NCBI RefSeq assembly: GCF_009389715.1
Contig: NC_052399.1
Coordinates: 19,347,646 to 19,411,645 of the forward strand
From: Phoenix dactylifera
Lineage: Eukaryota; Streptophyta; Magnoliopsida; Arecales; Arecaceae
Length of the DNA stretch: 64,000 nt
Direction: 5' to 3'
In this document: piece by piece, positions 31,081 to 63,564 of the stretch
How positions within the stretch are numbered: position 1 is the first letter of the stretch
Layout of the letters: the number at the start of each line of letters is the position of its first letter
Notes under the pieces: model-generated
The model's input: only the letters and a program-made list of their open reading frames with translations
Database searches by the model: none
What the model was told of the DNA's origin: nothing
Program-made: the position numbers and the translations under genes

Positions 31081-31213
31081 GTAAGCAGTGGTACGTACGA
31101 GCGAGTAGGTTCTTTCCTTGCCTTTACCTATAGCTCGTTCCATTCCTTCTCTTTGAATTTTTGATTTTTTTTTTCTTTCTTGTAAAGACTTTGTGGCTTG
31201 TGTTCGTTGTCAG
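31081..31213 (+). other. Candidate 5'-UTR intron of the TCP gene
   Basis: GAGGG|GTAAGCAG forms a strong donor at 31081 and a T-rich tract precedes TTGTCAG at 31207-31213. Removing this 133-base stretch also removes the upstream in-frame Met at 31161, which supports the start at 31662. This is an inference from splice-site shape only. Confidence 0.35.
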
Positions 31214-31239
31214 ACCCAGCCGAGGTGGTGGAGCTGGTG

Positions 31240-31377
31240 ATGGAATTCTGGGAGTTGGATGGCCAAGCCTTTTGGAAGCGGAGGCAAGAGGAGCACCACC
31301 ACATACTACTTCCAAAACAGCAGCAGGAGAGGAAAGAGAAGCGGCAAGAGGGAACAGAGAGAAAGGAATCCAACTAG
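31240..31377 (+). CDS. Upstream ORF in the TCP leader (45 codons)
   Basis: ATG at 31240 opens a 45-residue frame (starts [11 protein letters not shown], basic C-terminal half) that ends well before the main TCP start. A second out-of-frame ATG at 31259 opens a 171-residue frame that overlaps the main start and ends at 31774. Both would be met by scanning ribosomes before the TCP ATG if the leader is as long as it appears. Whether either is translated or conserved is unknown. Confidence 0.3.
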
Positions 31378-31661
31378 CGGCAACGACAAAGCTGGACGGA
31401 AGACAGAAGAGGGCGGCCAAGGATCTGGATCCTCGGAGGACTCCGTACCATCCAATTCCGAACCCAAGAGAAAGCGAAAGAGAAGAAAGAAGAGAGCAAC
31501 CCCAAGAAGAAGAACAGCAACTCCAAGGCTTCCAGCTTCATCCCCTCCAGCACCACCCACACCCACCACCCGGGGGTCGCTCCTGTTTCCCTTCCCCTTC
31601 CTCCTCCTCCTCCTCGCCTGCCACGGCTTCCTCCTCCGACTATGCCCTTCTCTCCGACCGG

Positions 31662-32930
31662 ATGGCCGAGGCCCACGGCCACGGCCACGGCCACGGCCAC
31701 CTTTCCCTCCACCACGGCCACGAGCAGCAGCACCAGCGGCCGAGATTCGGTGCAGGGCTGAGGGGCGCCGGTGAGATCGTGGAGGTCCAGGGGGGCCACA
31801 TTGTGCGCTCCACCGGGCGCAAGGACCGCCACAGCAAAGTGTGCACTGCCAAGGGCACCCGAGACCGCCGCGTCCGCCTCTCCGCCCACACCGCCATCCA
31901 GTTCTACGACGTCCAGGACCGCCTCGGCTACGACCGCCCTAGCAAGGCCGTCGACTGGCTCATCAAGAACGCCAAGGCCGCCATCGACGAGCTTGCCGAG
32001 CTTCCCGCCTGGCACCCGAGCTCCACCTCCGCCGCCTCCGCCTCCAACCCTCCTCCCGCCTCCAATCCTCAGGAAACCCAGGCTGCCGTCGCTGCCAACC
32101 AGCCCGTCGGAGATTCTAGCAAGAAAACGATTCCAGTTGCGCAACCGGTTGCTTCTGCCGCCTTCAGCTTCGGCGGTGGCAGTGGAGGTGGCAGCGGCAG
32201 TGCTAGTTTTCTCCCGCCGTCGCTCGATTCCGATGCTATCGCCGACACCATCAAATCCTTCTTTCCAATGGGTGCCGCCGCCGCCGCCGCCGCAACCGCA
32301 ACCGCGCCCCCTTCGAGCCCTCCGATCGGCTTTCAGAATTACCCGCCGGACCTCTTGTCGCGCACTAGCAGCCAGGACCTCCGCCTCTCCCTCCAATCCT
32401 TCCGAGACCCAATCTTTCACAACCCCAGCACCAGCCACCACCACCAGCGCCACCATCCCCGAAGCCAACATCACCACCAGAACCCCGCTCCTTCCGCCCA
32501 GCAGGCCATTTTCTCCGGCTCCGCCCATTTGGCCTTCGACACGGCCTCCGCCGGCTGGTCCGAGCAGAGCCACAGGATGTTTCCGTGGAATGTGGCGGAG
32601 GCGGGAGGCAGCGGCGGGGGATACGTGTTCCATGTGCCGCCGCCGCAGGCTGTGCCGCTGCACCCGGTGCTCGGCCAAAGCCAGTTTTTTACTCAGAGGG
32701 GACCCCTTCAGTCCAGTAACTCGCCCGCCATTCGTGCTTGGGCGGATCCCATTGCTTCGGCAACCGACCAGCAGATGCACCCTGCGATCCATCCCTCGAT
32801 TTCGTCTATTGGATTCGCATCCGGTGCTGGCTTCTCGGGGTTTCGCATTCCGGCACGGATACAGGGTGAAGAGGAGCATGACGGCATCTCCGACAAGCCG
32901 CCGTCTGCTTCCTCTGCTTCTCACCATTGA
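31662..32930 (+). CDS. TCP4: CIN-class TCP transcription factor, TCP4-like, miR319-regulated
   Basis: Single-exon coding region of 422 residues. Residues about 53-111 form the TCP basic helix-loop-helix domain ([20 protein letters not shown], then [20 protein letters not shown], then [19 protein letters not shown]). A His-rich N-terminus precedes it. Conserved CIN-TCP text [14 protein letters not shown] follows near residue 235, and His/Gln-, Ala- and Gly-rich linkers fill the rest. CIN-TCPs bind GGACCA-type sites in the nucleus and restrain leaf cell proliferation. The in-frame miR319 target site confirms the miR319-regulated subgroup (TCP2/3/4/10/24). The 31662 ATG is chosen because the frame upstream has no Met after the likely leader intron. 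The subgroup is secure; TCP4 rather than TCP3 or TCP10 is an inference. Confidence 0.93.
32696..32716 (+). promoter_or_regulatory. miR319 target site in the TCP coding region
   Basis: The stretch contains CCCCTTCAGTCCAG preceded by GAGGGGA, the arrangement seen in Arabidopsis TCP3/TCP4 targets. The 3' part pairs with the miR319 5' seed region; mismatches sit in the 5' part as in known targets. Cleavage here is the established control of this TCP subgroup. Confidence 0.92.
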
Positions 32931-47210: not shown

Positions 47211-47215
47211 AATAT

Positions 47216-47288
47216 GGTCCCGGCGGGGCTCGAACCCGCGACCTTCGGCTCATAAGACCAACGCTCTAACCAACTGAGCTACGGGACC
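47216..47288 (-). tRNA. trnI-UAU: tRNA-Ile (anticodon UAU), intronless
   Basis: The minus strand folds into a complete 73-base cloverleaf. The acceptor stem GGTCCCG/CGGGACC is perfect, the D stem is GCTC/GAGC, the T stem GCGGG/CCCGC is perfect with loop TTCGAGC, and the anticodon stem is TTGGT/GCCGA with two G-T pairs. The loop CTTATGA places T-A-T at positions 34-36, giving UAU (Ile, AUA codon). Internal A box (TAGCTCAGTTGG) and B box (GGTTCGAGCCC) are present, and a T-run follows at the 3' side for Pol III termination. In plants introns occur mainly in tRNA-Tyr and elongator tRNA-Met, so an intronless form is expected. Confidence 0.93.
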
Positions 47289-47299
47289 AAGATTAATTA

Positions 47300-51010: not shown

Positions 51011-51834
51011 GCCGCTGGGAGCGAGTCATATAAATATGTGGGTTTATATATATTTAATGTGGTTCGAATGAATGATCAGGTAGCAGTTGGTTACCAACAT
51101 CGATCAATGCACTCACTTTCCCAAAAATATCACTTTTACATTTGATAAATTATCTTAAGCAACTTTCATTGTTGGACATATGCAATCACTACTCTAATAA
51201 GGCAGCCATTGTGTTATGAATTTGAAATGATGTGCATGATCCAAATGATCATAATGCATCCCATCTAAAGAAAGATTTCTAGTGGTAAGAACGAGTTGCA
51301 AAACCCGACAGTCAGCCCTCCTCTTCTTACCGCCTGCTATTAAAAAAGTCTATGGGTAGAAAATTTGGCCTTTTACTTGATTGGCATTTAACAATTAACT
51401 CTTACATGTCCCTTGAATAAAATTTAGTCTTTTTTTATGCAAATTTATGTCTGTTTCTTAATGTAGTTGTTGTCATACATGAGCTAATTAAGAAGTGGAC
51501 ATGAAATTGCTATCAAAATAAAGAAAACCTAAAATGTAATTTCTAATTTACAAAGATTAAAATAAAATAACGGTCAATTTAAGCACCGGATCTCACGTTT
51601 CCGTGAACGAACTGGCATGGTGCAGCCTGTACAAACTAGGCTGAGCCGGCCGGTTTCAAAAGCTAATCCAACCGCCATAGATCTTGTCAAACCCGATCTC
51701 CGAACACTGCAGGCTACTATCGTCATTGCAATACAGTTCCAAGTCAACCGCTGAGGAAAGCTACACCCACAACTTTCTCTTACACTCGATGTTTAACAAA
51801 TACTAATTGTGGCGGTCTTCAAGAGATGAGGGCG

Positions 51835-51836
<2 letters not shown>

Positions 51837-51868
<32 letters not shown>
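51837..51868. repeat. (GA)n microsatellite in the ATL leader
   Basis: An uninterrupted GA run directly upstream of the chosen start codon at 51873. The in-frame Met at 51807 would translate it as an Arg-Glu repeat, which argues for the downstream start. Confidence 0.95.
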
Positions 51869-51871
<3 letters not shown>

Positions 51872-51872
51872 A

Positions 51873-52397
51873 ATGGCCGCCACCACCACCATGACCACGG
51901 ACTCAGAGAGTTCCCCGGCGCAACATGCGAAACTTGGCATAGTGGCTGCGGAGGTCGCGATCTTCACCATCGCCACCTACGCCGTCTCTACTGTCGTCAT
52001 CATTTTCTGTGTCAATATCTGGGACCGACTTTGGGGCCGGCGCCGTGTCCTCCACACCCCACCCGCGAGCAGGCCTACCGAGGCCCTCAGAACCGGGCTG
52101 CGGCCATCCGCCATCTCTGCCCTGCCGACTTTCGCCTACCGGAGAGTCGGGGATGGCAGTGGAAGCGAAAATACCGGCACTTCGGAACAGAGAACCGTCT
52201 GTATGAGTCTGGTGGAGGAAGGGGAGATGGTGAGGCTGCTGCCCAACTGTAGACATGTCTTCCATGTCGATTGTGTCGACGTATGGTTTCGCTCCCACTC
52301 GACGTGTCCCCACTGTCATTCCAGTGTCGAGGCACAAGAAATGGTCCGGAAGGTGGAGTTTGGCGAGGCGTCGGCGCCACTGCCCCCATCGGTGTAA
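51873..52397 (+). CDS. ATL-like RING-H2 membrane protein with a variant RING
   Basis: Intronless ORF of 174 residues, as usual for ATL E3 ligases. It has a transmembrane segment at about residues 21-48, a GLD-like motif (GLRPSAISALPTFAY, about 75-89) and a RING-H2 domain at about 107-148. Spacing follows the ATL rule exactly: C110, C126, H128, H131, C134, C145, C148, with the conserved Pro after C145. The first zinc ligand is replaced by R107. A protein of this kind would normally pass ubiquitin to membrane-associated targets. With one ligand of the first zinc site lost, activity is doubtful, though a variant fold cannot be excluded. The start at 51873 is chosen over 51807 because the longer form reads through the GA microsatellite. 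It is the only full-length member of a local family. Confidence 0.8.
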   Translation: MAATTTMTTDSESSPAQHAKLGIVAAEVAIFTIATYAVSTVVIIFCVNIWDRLWGRRRVLHTPPASRPTEALRTGLRPSAISALPTFAYRRVGDGSGSENTGTSEQRTVCMSLVEEGEMVRLLPNCRHVFHVDCVDVWFRSHSTCPHCHSSVEAQEMVRKVEFGEASAPLPPSV

Positions 52398-57685: not shown

Positions 57686-58449
57686 ATGTCCACTAGCTCA
57701 TGGATCTTCCTGTCCCGAGATTCAAACAACGACAATATAGGAGCTAAGCTCGTGGTCTTGGCTCTCTCCTTCGCTGCCTCTCTTATCATATTCTTCGGTC
57801 GACACCTACTCCGTGGCTGGCGCCACCACCGGTGCATAACCACAGCATCTACATCCTCACCTACCAAAAAGTTGCCCAATGGGACGCTATATGGAGCAGA
57901 TCGATCGTACTAGCTCAAGATCTAAAAAAAAATCAAACAAAAAACAAAAAAAATATTAAAAAAATAATTAAAAAATATTTTATTACAAATTGACCGTATA
58001 AAATAATTTTTGTTGGATGGAATGTTCGATTCGTACTCAAATAAAAGATAAAATTTGATAACCACTAAATGATAAAAATAACTATTTAAAAAAAATAATT
58101 AAGTGGAATAGAAGTAGAATTGAAATCCTAAAATTATTAAAACTAATAACTAAATAAACAAAAATCCTCAAAACTCGGAAGAGAGAAATGTACGGCTTTT
58201 GTCCAAATGTAATAAACACCAATTTCATGTCGAGTGTATCGACATGTGGTTGTACTCCCACTCGACTTGCCTTTGGGCCGGCCTGACATCGTCGATTCAC
58301 CAAAAGTGGTCAAGAAAGTGGAGCTCGGTGAGGTGTCGGCCCCACCGAAATTGCAGGTTAAGCTCAGCAGGTGGTGGGTTCAAGGGGACAAATTGCCAGG
58401 GTCACCCCAGATGGCAGCTGGGATCTTCGTTCCAGAGAACGTCATGTAG
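57686..58449 (+). pseudogene. ATL-like RING-H2 pseudogene split by a repeat
   Basis: The first part (57686-57904) starts MSTSSWIFLSRD and has a hydrophobic segment (LVVLALSFAASLIIFFG). The second part (about 58179-58400) reads NVRLLSKCNKHQFHVECIDM and WLYSHSTC, the second half of a RING-H2 domain. It then continues in another frame as VVKKVELGEVSAPP, matching MVRKVEFGEASAPL of the 51.9-kb gene. The last RING Cys is not kept in frame. About 270 bp of a dispersed repeat separates the two parts. Confidence 0.75.
57905..58178. repeat. Dispersed repeat, copy 2, inside the ATL pseudogene
   Basis: A/T-rich insert matching 35095-35470 in a series of ordered words (AGATCTA, AAACAAAAAACA, AAAATATTTTAT, TACTCAAAT, TTGATAAC, ATTAAAACTAAT). 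It interrupts the RING-H2 pseudogene between its membrane segment and the RING. Confidence 0.6.
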
Positions 58450-58639
58450 AAAAATGATTGAACAGTTGAAAAATTACCAAGGATGCTATTGAAGATTTAG
58501 TGGGACATTGGTATACCACTTCCATTGTCCTAATTGTTTTTTTGCTTCCCTTGTTTCTGTTGATGCATACGTAAAACTTATGCATAAATGTTTTTGTGTG
58601 CATATTAAAATCATAAGAAAACATGGAGAATTAGCCGTT

Positions 58640-59680
58640 GGAGAGGGAATAAGCGCATGTGCTACGATGGGCCTTGCCGCTAGAATCCGTACTAAGGTCG
58701 GACACCATCCGAACTACAATGAGATCGGCTGGAACCAACGTAAAGGCATATCGGCTGAGAGCTGAGGAGTAGCTTTAAGACACCAATGGACCAACATTGC
58801 TTCTTTGGAAGGTGAGCATGACCTGTAAGCAAGGTCCGCCGTACCGGTACCGGTCGGCATACCGGTGGCCGGCCGGACCGGTACCGGGTAGTTTCAAAAA
58901 CCACAGCGTCTTTCAAAAACCACAGCGCGAGGCGCTGTGGTTCTAAAAAAAAAAAATCGTACCGGTGCGAACCGGCCGGTTCGCATCGGTACGAGGCCAA
59001 ACCGGCCGGTACGGGCTCCGAACCGGCCGGTTCGGCTAAAAAACCGGAAAATACCGATTTTTTTGTGGTTCCGGTACCGGTCTAGGACCGGACCGATACG
59101 GCATTCAATGCCTGTAAGGAAGTCCGCTTGCCAGAAGGTTTCAGTAGGGGATCCTCTAATGCTTAAATTAGTGAAAATCTAGAGCGATAAGGGAAAAAGA
59201 GAGTGTGTGAGAATGGAAAAGTGCTCAAGAGTGGCTACCTAGGGGTTCTTTGGTCACCCCTATACATAGACTGAGATGAGTATCTGTATTTTATTCATCA
59301 AGAGACACAATAATTAAATAGTGATAATTGGCCTCATTTACCTAATGCATGGTAACGACTCTTCGCGATACATCCACAATATTAATTATGCTGATTGTGT
59401 ATTTATAGCCAAATTGGATCAACTGTTGTTGAGACCATAATTGTAACTCCTTCAATGATCCTTGGCGTTACTCCATGGCTGAACTGACCAACAGAACACT
59501 TCGGCCAATACTGAAATTATTTACCTTGATCAAGGTCTAAGTCAGGTAGATTGGATTACTCCGAAATCGAGACAGCCAATATTCTCCCCATCAATAGAAA
59601 TAATGTCAAGTTAAGCATTATTTTCCCCTGCATATCAACTTCTTTTGGACAAGATAATGGTTAGGTCCAGATCATTAAGT
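58640..59680 (+). mobile_element. LTR-like fragment hosting a hAT-like insertion
   Basis: Contains TCCTCTAATGCTTAAATTAG, matching the LTR-like block at 28.3 kb, and downstream text in the style of gypsy LTRs. A 281-bp DNA element sits inside it at 58830-59110. Boundaries are estimates; no coding domains or partner LTR were seen. Confidence 0.4.
58822..59118. mobile_element. hAT-like foldback element with perfect 8-bp TSD
   Basis: The element (58830-59110, 281 bp) starts CAAGGTCCGCCGTACCGG and ends CGGCATTCAATG, so it has hAT-style CA...TG ends. It is flanked on both sides by CCTGTAAG (58822-58829 and 59111-59118). The interior is GC-rich, dominated by CCGGTACCGG-type words running inward from both ends. 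The centre holds the hairpin AACCACAGCGC/GCGCTGTGGTT (58917-58941). It has no coding capacity. The 8-bp duplication fits the hAT superfamily. Confidence 0.88.
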
Positions 59681-59876
59681 TAAAAAAATGGGGGCGTGGG
59701 TTAATTTTAAATTGCAAGTGGACTTGCCATGGTTCCTTTTGCTATTGGGATTACGGGGAGTGGAAAGTGCCAGAGCGCACGCGACGTTGTTTATTTTATT
59801 ACCTTTAATTTTGCAATGGCCTCACCTTGTTTGGCGTGGGATGTTTTTGGAGAGTTTGTCCTTTTCGGCTTTCCGC
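59200..59876. other. Flank between the hAT-like and Mutator-like elements
   Basis: Mostly the tail of the LTR-like fragment, then ordinary DNA. No gene was recognised. Confidence 0.4.
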
Positions 59877-60747
59877 ATAGAATAGGGGTGGTTCTATATA
59901 CACCCCCCTATTGCTCAGGACACCCCCCAAAAATTAAAAAAAAATTAAATACTCTCTACACCCCCCCCATTTGCTAAGGACACCCCTAAAAAATTAAAAA
60001 TTCCTAAATTACCCCCCACCCTCCCCACCCCCTCACTTAAATTGCTCTCTACACCCCCCAAACCCCCCCCACCCCGCTCTTCCCCTCCAAAACACCTCGC
60101 CAACGCCCAAAACCCCCCCGTTCCCCCTTCTCCCTCTCGTCGCCGGCATTCTCCCGATCTCCGACCACCTCGCCGGCTTCTCCCGGAACCACCTCGCCGG
60201 CTTCTTCCGAAATTTTTTTTTTCACGGTTCGTGCTCCGTTCGGCACTGGATCGCCGAACAAAAGGCTTCTGTTCGGCTGAACAGTGCCGGACAGAAGCCT
60301 TCTGTTCGGCACTGTGCAGCCGAACAGATCTGTTCGGTTGAGGGTTGCCGAACAGAAGGCTTCTGTTCGGCACTGTTCAGCCGAACAGAAGCCTTTTGTT
60401 CGGCGATCCAGTGCCGAACGGAGCACGAACCGTGAAAAAAAAAAAATTCGGGAGAAGCCGGCGAGGTGGTTCCGGGAGAAGCCGGCGAGGTGGTCGGAGA
60501 TCGGGAGAATGCCGGCGACGAGAGGGAGAAGGGGGAACGGGGGAGGAGGGGTTTAAGGGGGGTTTGAGGGGGTTTTTTTTTTTTTTCTTTTCAAAACGAA
60601 ACGGAGGAGGAGGAAGGGGGGTGTATGAGAAAATTTTAAGGGCAATATGGTAATTACACTAAAGGTTAGTTTGGGCATTTTTTTTTTGGTTTTTGGGGGG
60701 TGTCCTGAGCAATAGGGGGGGTGTATATAGAACTACCCATAGAATAG
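59877..60747. mobile_element. Mutator-like foldback element with perfect 9-bp TSD
   Basis: The element spans 59886-60738 (853 bp) with terminal inverted repeats GGGTGGTTCTATATACACCC and GGGTAGTTCTATATACACCC. It is flanked by ATAGAATAG on both sides (59877-59885 and 60739-60747). The inverted repeat continues almost to the middle: GCCGGCGAGGTGG and GGAGAAGCCGG copies, TTCACGGTTCGTGCTCCG and CTTCTGTTCGGC copies occur on both arms. The arms meet near the 18-bp palindrome CCGAACAGATCTGTTCGG (60320-60337). Nine-base duplications are the hallmark of the Mutator superfamily. It is non-autonomous; the ORFs on both strands are by-products of the GC-rich arms. Confidence 0.9.
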
Positions 60748-61494
60748 CGGGCGATTTATGGCAGCTCAGACTTTTGTTTACCACACAAACTACAAAGTGA
60801 TAAGGTTTTGTGAGAGATTACCAAACCACTCATGTTCTTAAGCAAGCAGGGGATTTAGATCAAGGGGATAAACTATTTGGCAAGTGAAAGGTTTCAGCCT
60901 TTTATATTTTTTCCCCCTTCTCTGTCTCGTAAGCTAAAGGGGAGTAGTCGTATTGAATCCTTCTAAAGTCAACATCTTTTGCATCTGCTAGCATAAGCTG
61001 GTTTAATCATAACTAAAAACTAAAAATTGCTTCCTTAGAGAAGGTTAGAGCATTGAAAATTCAAAAATGACATGAAAATAGACAAGTAGCCTTGAAGAAT
61101 AAAGATTAGGAGGGGTTTAGGAGGTTGTCTGGGTGGAAAGTCTCTCTATACGCAAAAGAATTTTGGTGCTGACCTCGACTCTTCAGTATTGTTTATTTAC
61201 ACTTATTTTAGCATTGTTCTGCAGTTGTTATTTATCCGTTGATTTGACGCTACTGATAAATAAGTTGGCTTGTTGCAGGGAAAATGAATCATCAAAAGAT
61301 AAGGATGGGAAAGATTTTCCTATATTATCATCTTGCTCATTAGGTGAACCTGATTGCAGTTAATTGCAATCCAGAGTCCTCTCAGTTAAAGTAGCAAACA
61401 GACCATGTGACATTATCCTGGGTGGCTTGGAGCTACCCTAAAACCATATTAAATCATAAATGAAATAAACTACACCAACCCCCCCACCCCACAC

Positions 61495-62816: not shown

Positions 62817-63564
62817 CATGAAACCAAGAAATGCGGAACTGTCTCAGACCGTCCGGTTTGGAGCGTACCGAGCCGTGCCAGCGGCGGACCAGGACGGTTT
62901 CGACATTGAAAATAGTAAATTGGCAAGTGGGAAGAGGGAGAAGGAAAGAGAGAAAAAGAAAGAGAGAGAGAGAGTGTGTGGAGGGAAGAAGGGGGAAGGA
63001 GAGGGAGCAAAGGCCGCCGAAGGCCTCTAAAGGGCACCGGAGGGGCGCGAAAGGGTTGGAGCAGGGCTTTGCCCCCCGGACCCTCTTTTAAACAAAATTG
63101 GGGTCCGTTGGAGCTCCTCTTTTTATTTTAAAAATTTTAAGTAAAGTCAACCTTTTTTTATTTTAAAAATTTTAAGTGAAGTCGGCCAGGGGTCGGCAAA
63201 CCTCTTGCCGACTTCACTTAAAATTTTCAAACCAAAAAAGAACCCAAATTTTAAGGAAGGTTGGAATATTTCTTGCCAACTTCACTTAAAATTTTCAAAA
63301 TAAAAAAGAAGGCCCCGACGGACCCTATTTCGTTCGAAACAAGGTCTAAAGGGGCTCTGCCTCTCTGCGGCCCTCCGATGCCCTCTGGCGACCCTCCTTC
63401 CGCTCCCCCTCTCTCTCTCTCTCTTTTTCTCTCTCCCATTCTTCCTCGCCCTCTTTGCTGTGTCGGTACGGGGACGACATGGAACGGCACATAGGCATAC
63501 CGAACCGAGCTGCCGATTGACCGATACGGACTTCGGTACTGGCACGGAAGACCTTGCATAAAAC
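62817..63564. mobile_element. hAT-like foldback element, 732 bp
   Basis: The element (62825-63556) starts CAAGAAATGCGGAAC and ends GGCACGGAAGACCTTG. It is flanked by CATGAAAC (62817-62824) and CATAAAAC (63557-63564), a duplication with one mismatch. The right end, read inward, CAAGGTCTTCCGTGCCAGTA, resembles the left end of the 281-bp element at 58830, so both belong to one family. The arms include matching GA-rich and CT-rich blocks, GGGTCCGT(T/C)GG-type words, and a perfect 21-bp-stem hairpin at 63166-63227 with core GAAGTCGGC. It has no coding capacity. Confidence 0.82.

Follow-up and report, generated by a model that had tools for sequence, protein, structure and literature searches.

What kind of element is the short segment of DNA that lies between two copies of a 9-bp word in the 64,000-nt stretch analysed here (the window), does it form one inverted repeat from end to end, and how did the palindrome in its centre arise? 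An earlier note on this DNA described it as a recent Mutator-like insertion built entirely as a hairpin. The element, its layered structure, its class and its possible history are considered below.

Extent of the element and its flanking repeats

The segment at positions 59886-60738 is a real element of 853 bp, with the ends GGGTGGTTCTATATACACC and GGTGTATATAGAACTACCC, and is placed, as the earlier note had claimed, between perfect 9-bp direct repeats (ATAGAATAG) abutting both ends. In the window, this word occurs on the plus strand only at the two flanks and once on the minus strand (at 2979), and an exact 9-mer match at the element's spacing was found at 2 of 63080 window positions, the element's own site being one of the two. 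Because the flanking 9-mers are direct and not inverted, they do not count as a continuation of the terminal inverted repeat. A 10-bp duplication (CATAGAATAG) was also considered, as a C precedes both copies; with this delimitation, however, the ends would no longer match as GGG/CCC.

Local alignment of the two halves of the element gave a score of 374, whereas 300 dinucleotide shuffles averaged 21 and never exceeded 29. The terminal pattern, with at most three mismatches, occurs twice in the window, each time at an end of the element (shuffle mean 0.00). No second copy of the element was seen in the window, either with this pattern or among the matches listed in a BLAST comparison of the element with the window, where the rows outside the element are short and low-scoring (best 31.9 bits).

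Three-layered organization of the element

The proposal of a single long inverted repeat spanning the element was not confirmed: matching between the arms is confined to 59/60 bp on the outside and 214/215 bp on the inside. Three layers were distinguished (Table 1): (i) terminal repeats of ~60 bp, (ii) unmatched middle zones and (iii) a core palindrome of 429 bp. The transition from matching to non-matching zones in the arm alignment is abrupt, and the unmatched middle zones rule out that the element is a single full-length palindrome today.

Table 1. Features of the 853-bp element and their positions in the window.
Feature	Position	Strand	Remarks
Left target-site duplication ATAGAATAG	59877..59885	+	Identical to 60739-60747; abuts the element
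Left outer terminal inverted repeat	59886..59944	+	56/59 aligned bases equal the reverse complement of 60679-60738, 1 gap
Five inward-pointing ACACCCC motifs	59900..60057 (starts 59900, 59920, 59958, 59980, 60051)	+	As many in 0/1000 dinucleotide shuffles
Left middle zone, C-rich (170 bp)	59945..60114	+	Homology with the right arm not detectable
Left terminal repeat, second copy (tandem, degenerate)	59953..60012	+	46/60 identical to 59893-59952
Core left arm	60115..60328	+	Matches the right arm at 205/214 aligned positions, with 1 gap; GC 0.598, CpG O/E 1.24
Six hairpin units, ~33 bp apart	60235..60422	+	TRF period 33, 5.2 copies, 69% matches; restricted fold
18-bp perfect palindrome CCGAACAGATCTGTTCGG	60320..60337	.	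Axis 60328/60329; direct reading and arm alignment
Core right arm	60329..60543	-	Pairs with the left arm; GC 0.591, CpG O/E 1.31
Right middle zone (135 bp)	60544..60678	-	No detectable homology with the left arm
Three inward-pointing ACACCCC motifs	60618..60724 (at 60618, 60697, 60718)	-	As many in 0/1000 dinucleotide shuffles
Right outer terminal inverted repeat	60679..60738	-	Terminal pattern scan and arm alignment
Right target-site duplication ATAGAATAG	60739..60747	+	Abuts the element

The ends are composite. On the left, the terminal repeat and its tandem copy align with a score of 56 (1000 dinucleotide shuffles gave 32 at most), and the inward-pointing ACACCCC motifs by far exceed their means in shuffles that preserve dinucleotides and not C-tracts (0.21 on the left, with five observed, and 0.08 on the right, with three observed). 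The rest of the window holds three copies of this motif. Four of the eight motifs sit in the matching outer repeats, and thus the eight do not represent independent events. The ACACCCC modules may be regarded as candidate transposase-binding sites. The left outer repeat also includes a TATA-like sequence (CTATATACA), for which a promoter role is a candidate only.

Two earlier statements on the centre of the element were confirmed: it carries an 18-bp palindrome, perfect about its axis, and it is composed of a repeated motif and its complement (CTTCTGTTCGGC-type words). These words form the stems (7-13 bp) of the six array units, which in a fold restricted to pair spans of at most 34 nt have 8-nt loops in five cases and a 6-nt loop in one. 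Each unit is nearly palindromic, and for this reason direct and inverted amplification of the array are indistinguishable. The two core arms differ by nine mismatches and one gap; six of the mismatches fall within an 8-nt patch near the axis (60312-60319), which looks as if it had been replaced in a single event, and outside this patch there are only three mismatches and the gap over 206 positions. The core is GC-rich (0.59-0.60, compared with 0.405 for the window).

Classification and coding content

The anatomy of the element was compared with that of two classes of DNA transposons. As would be expected of a Mutator-like element (MULE), a putative target-site duplication of ~9 bp (ATAGAATAG) appears on either side, and terminal inverted repeats are present, with 56/59 matching bases over ~60 bp; many MULEs have long TIRs that exceed this length. 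A Foldback trait is seen in the ends, which are composite and carry an iterated short motif (ACACCCC, five times on the left, three times on the right). In contrast to Foldback elements, the inverted repeats do not account for nearly all of the element, since its two middle zones (170 and 135 bp) show no detectable homology. This combination is best read as a Mutator-like DNA element that is non-autonomous and has composite ends in the style of Foldback; we consider this reading probable, with a confidence that extends to the nature of the element and neither to a later origin of its core nor to dicing of its transcripts. The Mutator-like class named in the earlier note is thereby retained, and the element probably belongs to the Mutator superfamily, an assignment drawn from the length of the duplication and the anatomy of the ends. 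Duplications of 9 bp are also made by elements other than Mutator-like ones. Most likely, we are dealing with an ordinary non-autonomous transposon, a known kind of element.

No Pfam match at an E-value of 0.1 was found in seven of the ten ORFs (each of at least 75 codons) overlapping with the element (59711-59974, 60342-60650 and 60380-60658 were left out of the scan), and on this result a protein-coding element was rejected. The window yielded no Mutator transposase in the 30 ORFs scanned of the 331 with at least 60 codons, a search that a degraded copy could escape; the MURA transposase domain is not required of a non-autonomous copy. Matches to Lentivirus_VIF (E 0.019) and Reovirus_L2_4th (E 0.05), both outside the element, and to M_smaller_dom (E 0.0029) were below the curated cut-offs and were attributed to chance.

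Predicted folding of element RNA

RNA of either strand of the element is predicted to fold into a rod (-654.9 and -650.3 kcal/mol; z-scores of -44.0 and -42.6, respectively; 0 of 20 shuffles in each case). Perfect pairing runs of at least 10 bp are present both in the core (91, 77 and 21 bp) and in the outer repeats (31 and 12 bp), and 260 of the 830 24-nt windows of the element have an exact reverse complement within it. For the core array, the form with six small hairpins (-108.7 kcal/mol, pair span of at most 34 nt) is disfavoured as RNA in comparison with a single long hairpin (-182.8 kcal/mol, free folding). What stands of the earlier claim of a long double-stranded RNA serving as a Dicer substrate is therefore the folding potential (the rod-like fold with its 91- and 77-bp runs), and nothing beyond this potential is supported.

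A read-through RNA would form a long duplex that could be diced by DCL enzymes, as proposed for Mu killer in maize, and the core hairpin could in this way feed the plant small-RNA silencing system. If transcribed, the element would be a natural inverted-repeat trigger of small RNAs, including those of the terminal repeats of its family. A much more specific proposal, namely that the core grew from the 33-bp array, that its arms were kept alike by conversion and that siRNAs from the core and the terminal repeats silence the element's own transposase source in trans, i.e., a self-made silencing locus, appears to us very improbable. A microRNA gene was ruled out: no Rfam match at 59400-61200 reached its gathering score, and the 18 matches found there were all sub-threshold, the best near the element being MIR839 (61.5 bits vs. 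a gathering score of 200).

Age and origin of the core

The core arms (95.8%, 205/214) and the outer repeats (94.9%, 56/59) show a similar divergence. With so small a difference between the two, divergence does not date the core relative to the ends, and the contrast in arm similarity is one between the core and the middle zones only. The intact flanking repeat and the low divergence of the core suggest either a recent origin or a recent homogenization. Grasses accumulate substitutions at a rate of 1.3e-8 per site per year, which may not fit this host. With this rate, the age would be roughly 0.6 to 1.6 million years, an estimate that may differ for the host and is too low if conversion occurred between the arms. 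A "fairly recent" insertion, as put forward in the earlier note, is thus compatible with the intact duplication and the similar core arms, but conversion between the arms could equally have preserved their likeness. The CpG O/E is 1.24 and 1.31 in the core arms and 0.67 in the window; this undepleted core does not seem to fit a long period of heavy methylation, which is weak evidence, because the 2 kb to the left are likewise undepleted (0.98), with depletion in the 2 kb to the right (0.44).

The following course of events can be proposed for a Mutator-like element with composite ends. A MURA-like transposase made elsewhere would bind the ends in trans, with the ACACCCC modules as candidate sites, and would insert the element at ATAGAATAG. 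As for the core, a GC-rich internal segment would have been duplicated in inverted orientation, e.g., by template switching during gap repair following excision, at a time when the middle zones of the element were already asymmetric; we give this step about even chances. The formation of foldback transposons is recorded in elements of this type, in which a hairpin core is set apart from composite ends; should some copies carry the core and others lack it, the order of these steps could be tested.

An alternative history, in which the element was once a full-length classic foldback, would also be compatible with the Mutator-like class. The middle zones would then have diverged by indels and by slippage in tracts rich in C or A, while selection maintained the ends and conversion between the arms maintained the core. 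Such a decay agrees with the ACACCCC modules present on both sides, with the comparable divergence of the outer repeats and the core, and with a stretch common to both middle zones, CTTAAA...TACACCCCCC (21 of 24 aligned bases, one gap). This stretch gives the best local score of the two zones against each other, 28, which was reached in 17 of 1000 mononucleotide shuffles. Measured against dinucleotide shuffles, however, the similarity is ordinary (151 of 1000 reach this score), so that homology of the middle zones is not demonstrated, and the abrupt boundary between matching and non-matching zones also speaks against this history. We give it clearly less than even chances. The GC content of the core, so much higher than that of the window, would in turn be explained if a captured segment of a host gene had been duplicated in inverted orientation, as in a Pack-MULE, in which case small RNAs could target the parent gene; given that the seven scanned ORFs of the element gave no Pfam match and that short repeats arranged in an array occupy much of the core, this is unlikely.

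Other readings concern the nature of the element as a whole. A class assignment made from duplication length and end anatomy, and not from a linked transposase, would leave room for a TIR element from a different superfamily whose duplications happen to be 9 bp long. In plants, however, this combination of ends and duplication length usually marks a Mutator-like element, and we hold this reading for quite improbable. Near-perfect palindromes are sometimes artefacts of sequencing or assembly, produced by false inverted joining. Here, the core arms differ at nine positions and by a gap, the middle zones differ as well, and a direct 9-bp repeat abuts the matching ends, so that the chance of an artefact is virtually negligible.

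Neighbouring features in the window

The window is most likely nuclear DNA of a flowering plant, perhaps of a monocot. Its coding features include ORFs with (i) a TCP transcription-factor domain (31134-32927; PF03634, E 5.7e-32), (ii) a retrotransposon gag domain (933-2204; PF03732, E 1.4e-22) and (iii) a RING-type zinc finger (51807-52394). The TCP ORF contains AGGGGACCCCTTCAGTCCAG at 32697-32716, an apparent miR319 target site. Another RING-type ORF (58154-58489; zf-RING_2, 25.3 bits vs. a cut-off of 27.3 bits) ends ~1.4 kb to the left of the element. A tRNA-Ile gene with the anticodon TAT is located on the minus strand at 47214-47289, and the only match in the window at Rfam gathering score is a tRNA.

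Two further repeat structures were noted. Short inverted and tandem repeats of the CGGTACG / AAACCGGC type are found near the left flank of the element (58957-59047). To its right, a second nested inverted-repeat structure occupies 62860-63540; it is more diverged, with a 35-bp tandem repeat inside and with arms of 77% (62923-62986/63395-63458), 79% (63096-63147/63279-63330) and 88% (63154-63193/63200-63239) identity. This structure could be another, older foldback-type element.

Comparison with known systems

The exact terminal pattern GGGTRGTTCTATATACACC had no matches in viral contigs and none in bacterial or archaeal contigs, a result that is uninformative for a plant element, and the whole element had no match in plasmids in the distant search mode. 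When the terminal and core words were looked up in the literature (supplements and repeat libraries being outside the scope), only CTTCTGTTCGGC was found, once in each of two papers that are bacterial by title. Among the matches listed, no published description of the element was recognised by title or abstract start, which does not show that the family is undescribed. Mutator-like MITEs of plants are short, without recognised coding capacity, and have terminal inverted repeats and a 9-bp duplication. The element shares all these traits, and differs from them by its nested core palindrome with the 33-bp hairpin array. MITEs typically occur in many near-identical genomic copies; in the window, a single copy of the element was seen.

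Plant MULEs with multiple TIRs include a type 3 with one additional TIR at one end (PMC3310237). The present element resembles it in the second copy of the terminal repeat placed in tandem at one end and in the target duplication, but its extra copy is 60 bp long (46/60 identical), short of the similarity over at least 100 bp that defines external and internal TIRs in this system, and it has a large core palindrome (PMC3310237).

The nearest published anatomy found is that of Tm1. Tm1 Mutator/Foldback elements of root-knot nematodes make 9-bp target duplications and have composite ends in which short motifs are iterated, not always in equal number at both ends of an element; MITE-like forms exist, and the two TIRs of one element are on average 93.15% identical (PMC3169594). 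Common to both are the 9-bp duplication, the composite ends and the unequal motif numbers. The motifs themselves are different, and the units are consecutive in Tm1 and spaced in the present element, which moreover resides in a plant host, has a separate central palindrome and has no known link to a transposase (PMC3169594).

With respect to function, the comparison is with Mu killer of maize, which carries mudrA transposase sequence and silences MuDR; plants in which silencing occurs are reported to express antisense transcripts and those in which it fails read-through transcripts, so that the read-through hairpin model is not simple even in maize (PMC3440606). No inverted duplication of a transposase gene was recognised in the present element, its seven scanned ORFs (of ten with at least 75 codons) being without a Pfam match. 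It differs from Mu killer in carrying no transposase sequence in the ORFs scanned and in being known here as a predicted hairpin only, and is similar to it in that terminal repeats form part of an inverted structure from which a long hairpin RNA could arise (PMC3440606). The self-silencing reading, to which we attach very little weight, would make the element a miniature, transposase-free counterpart of Mu killer. Mu killer may be taken as the closest functional model, that of a Mutator-derived hairpin silencing in trans (PMC3440606).
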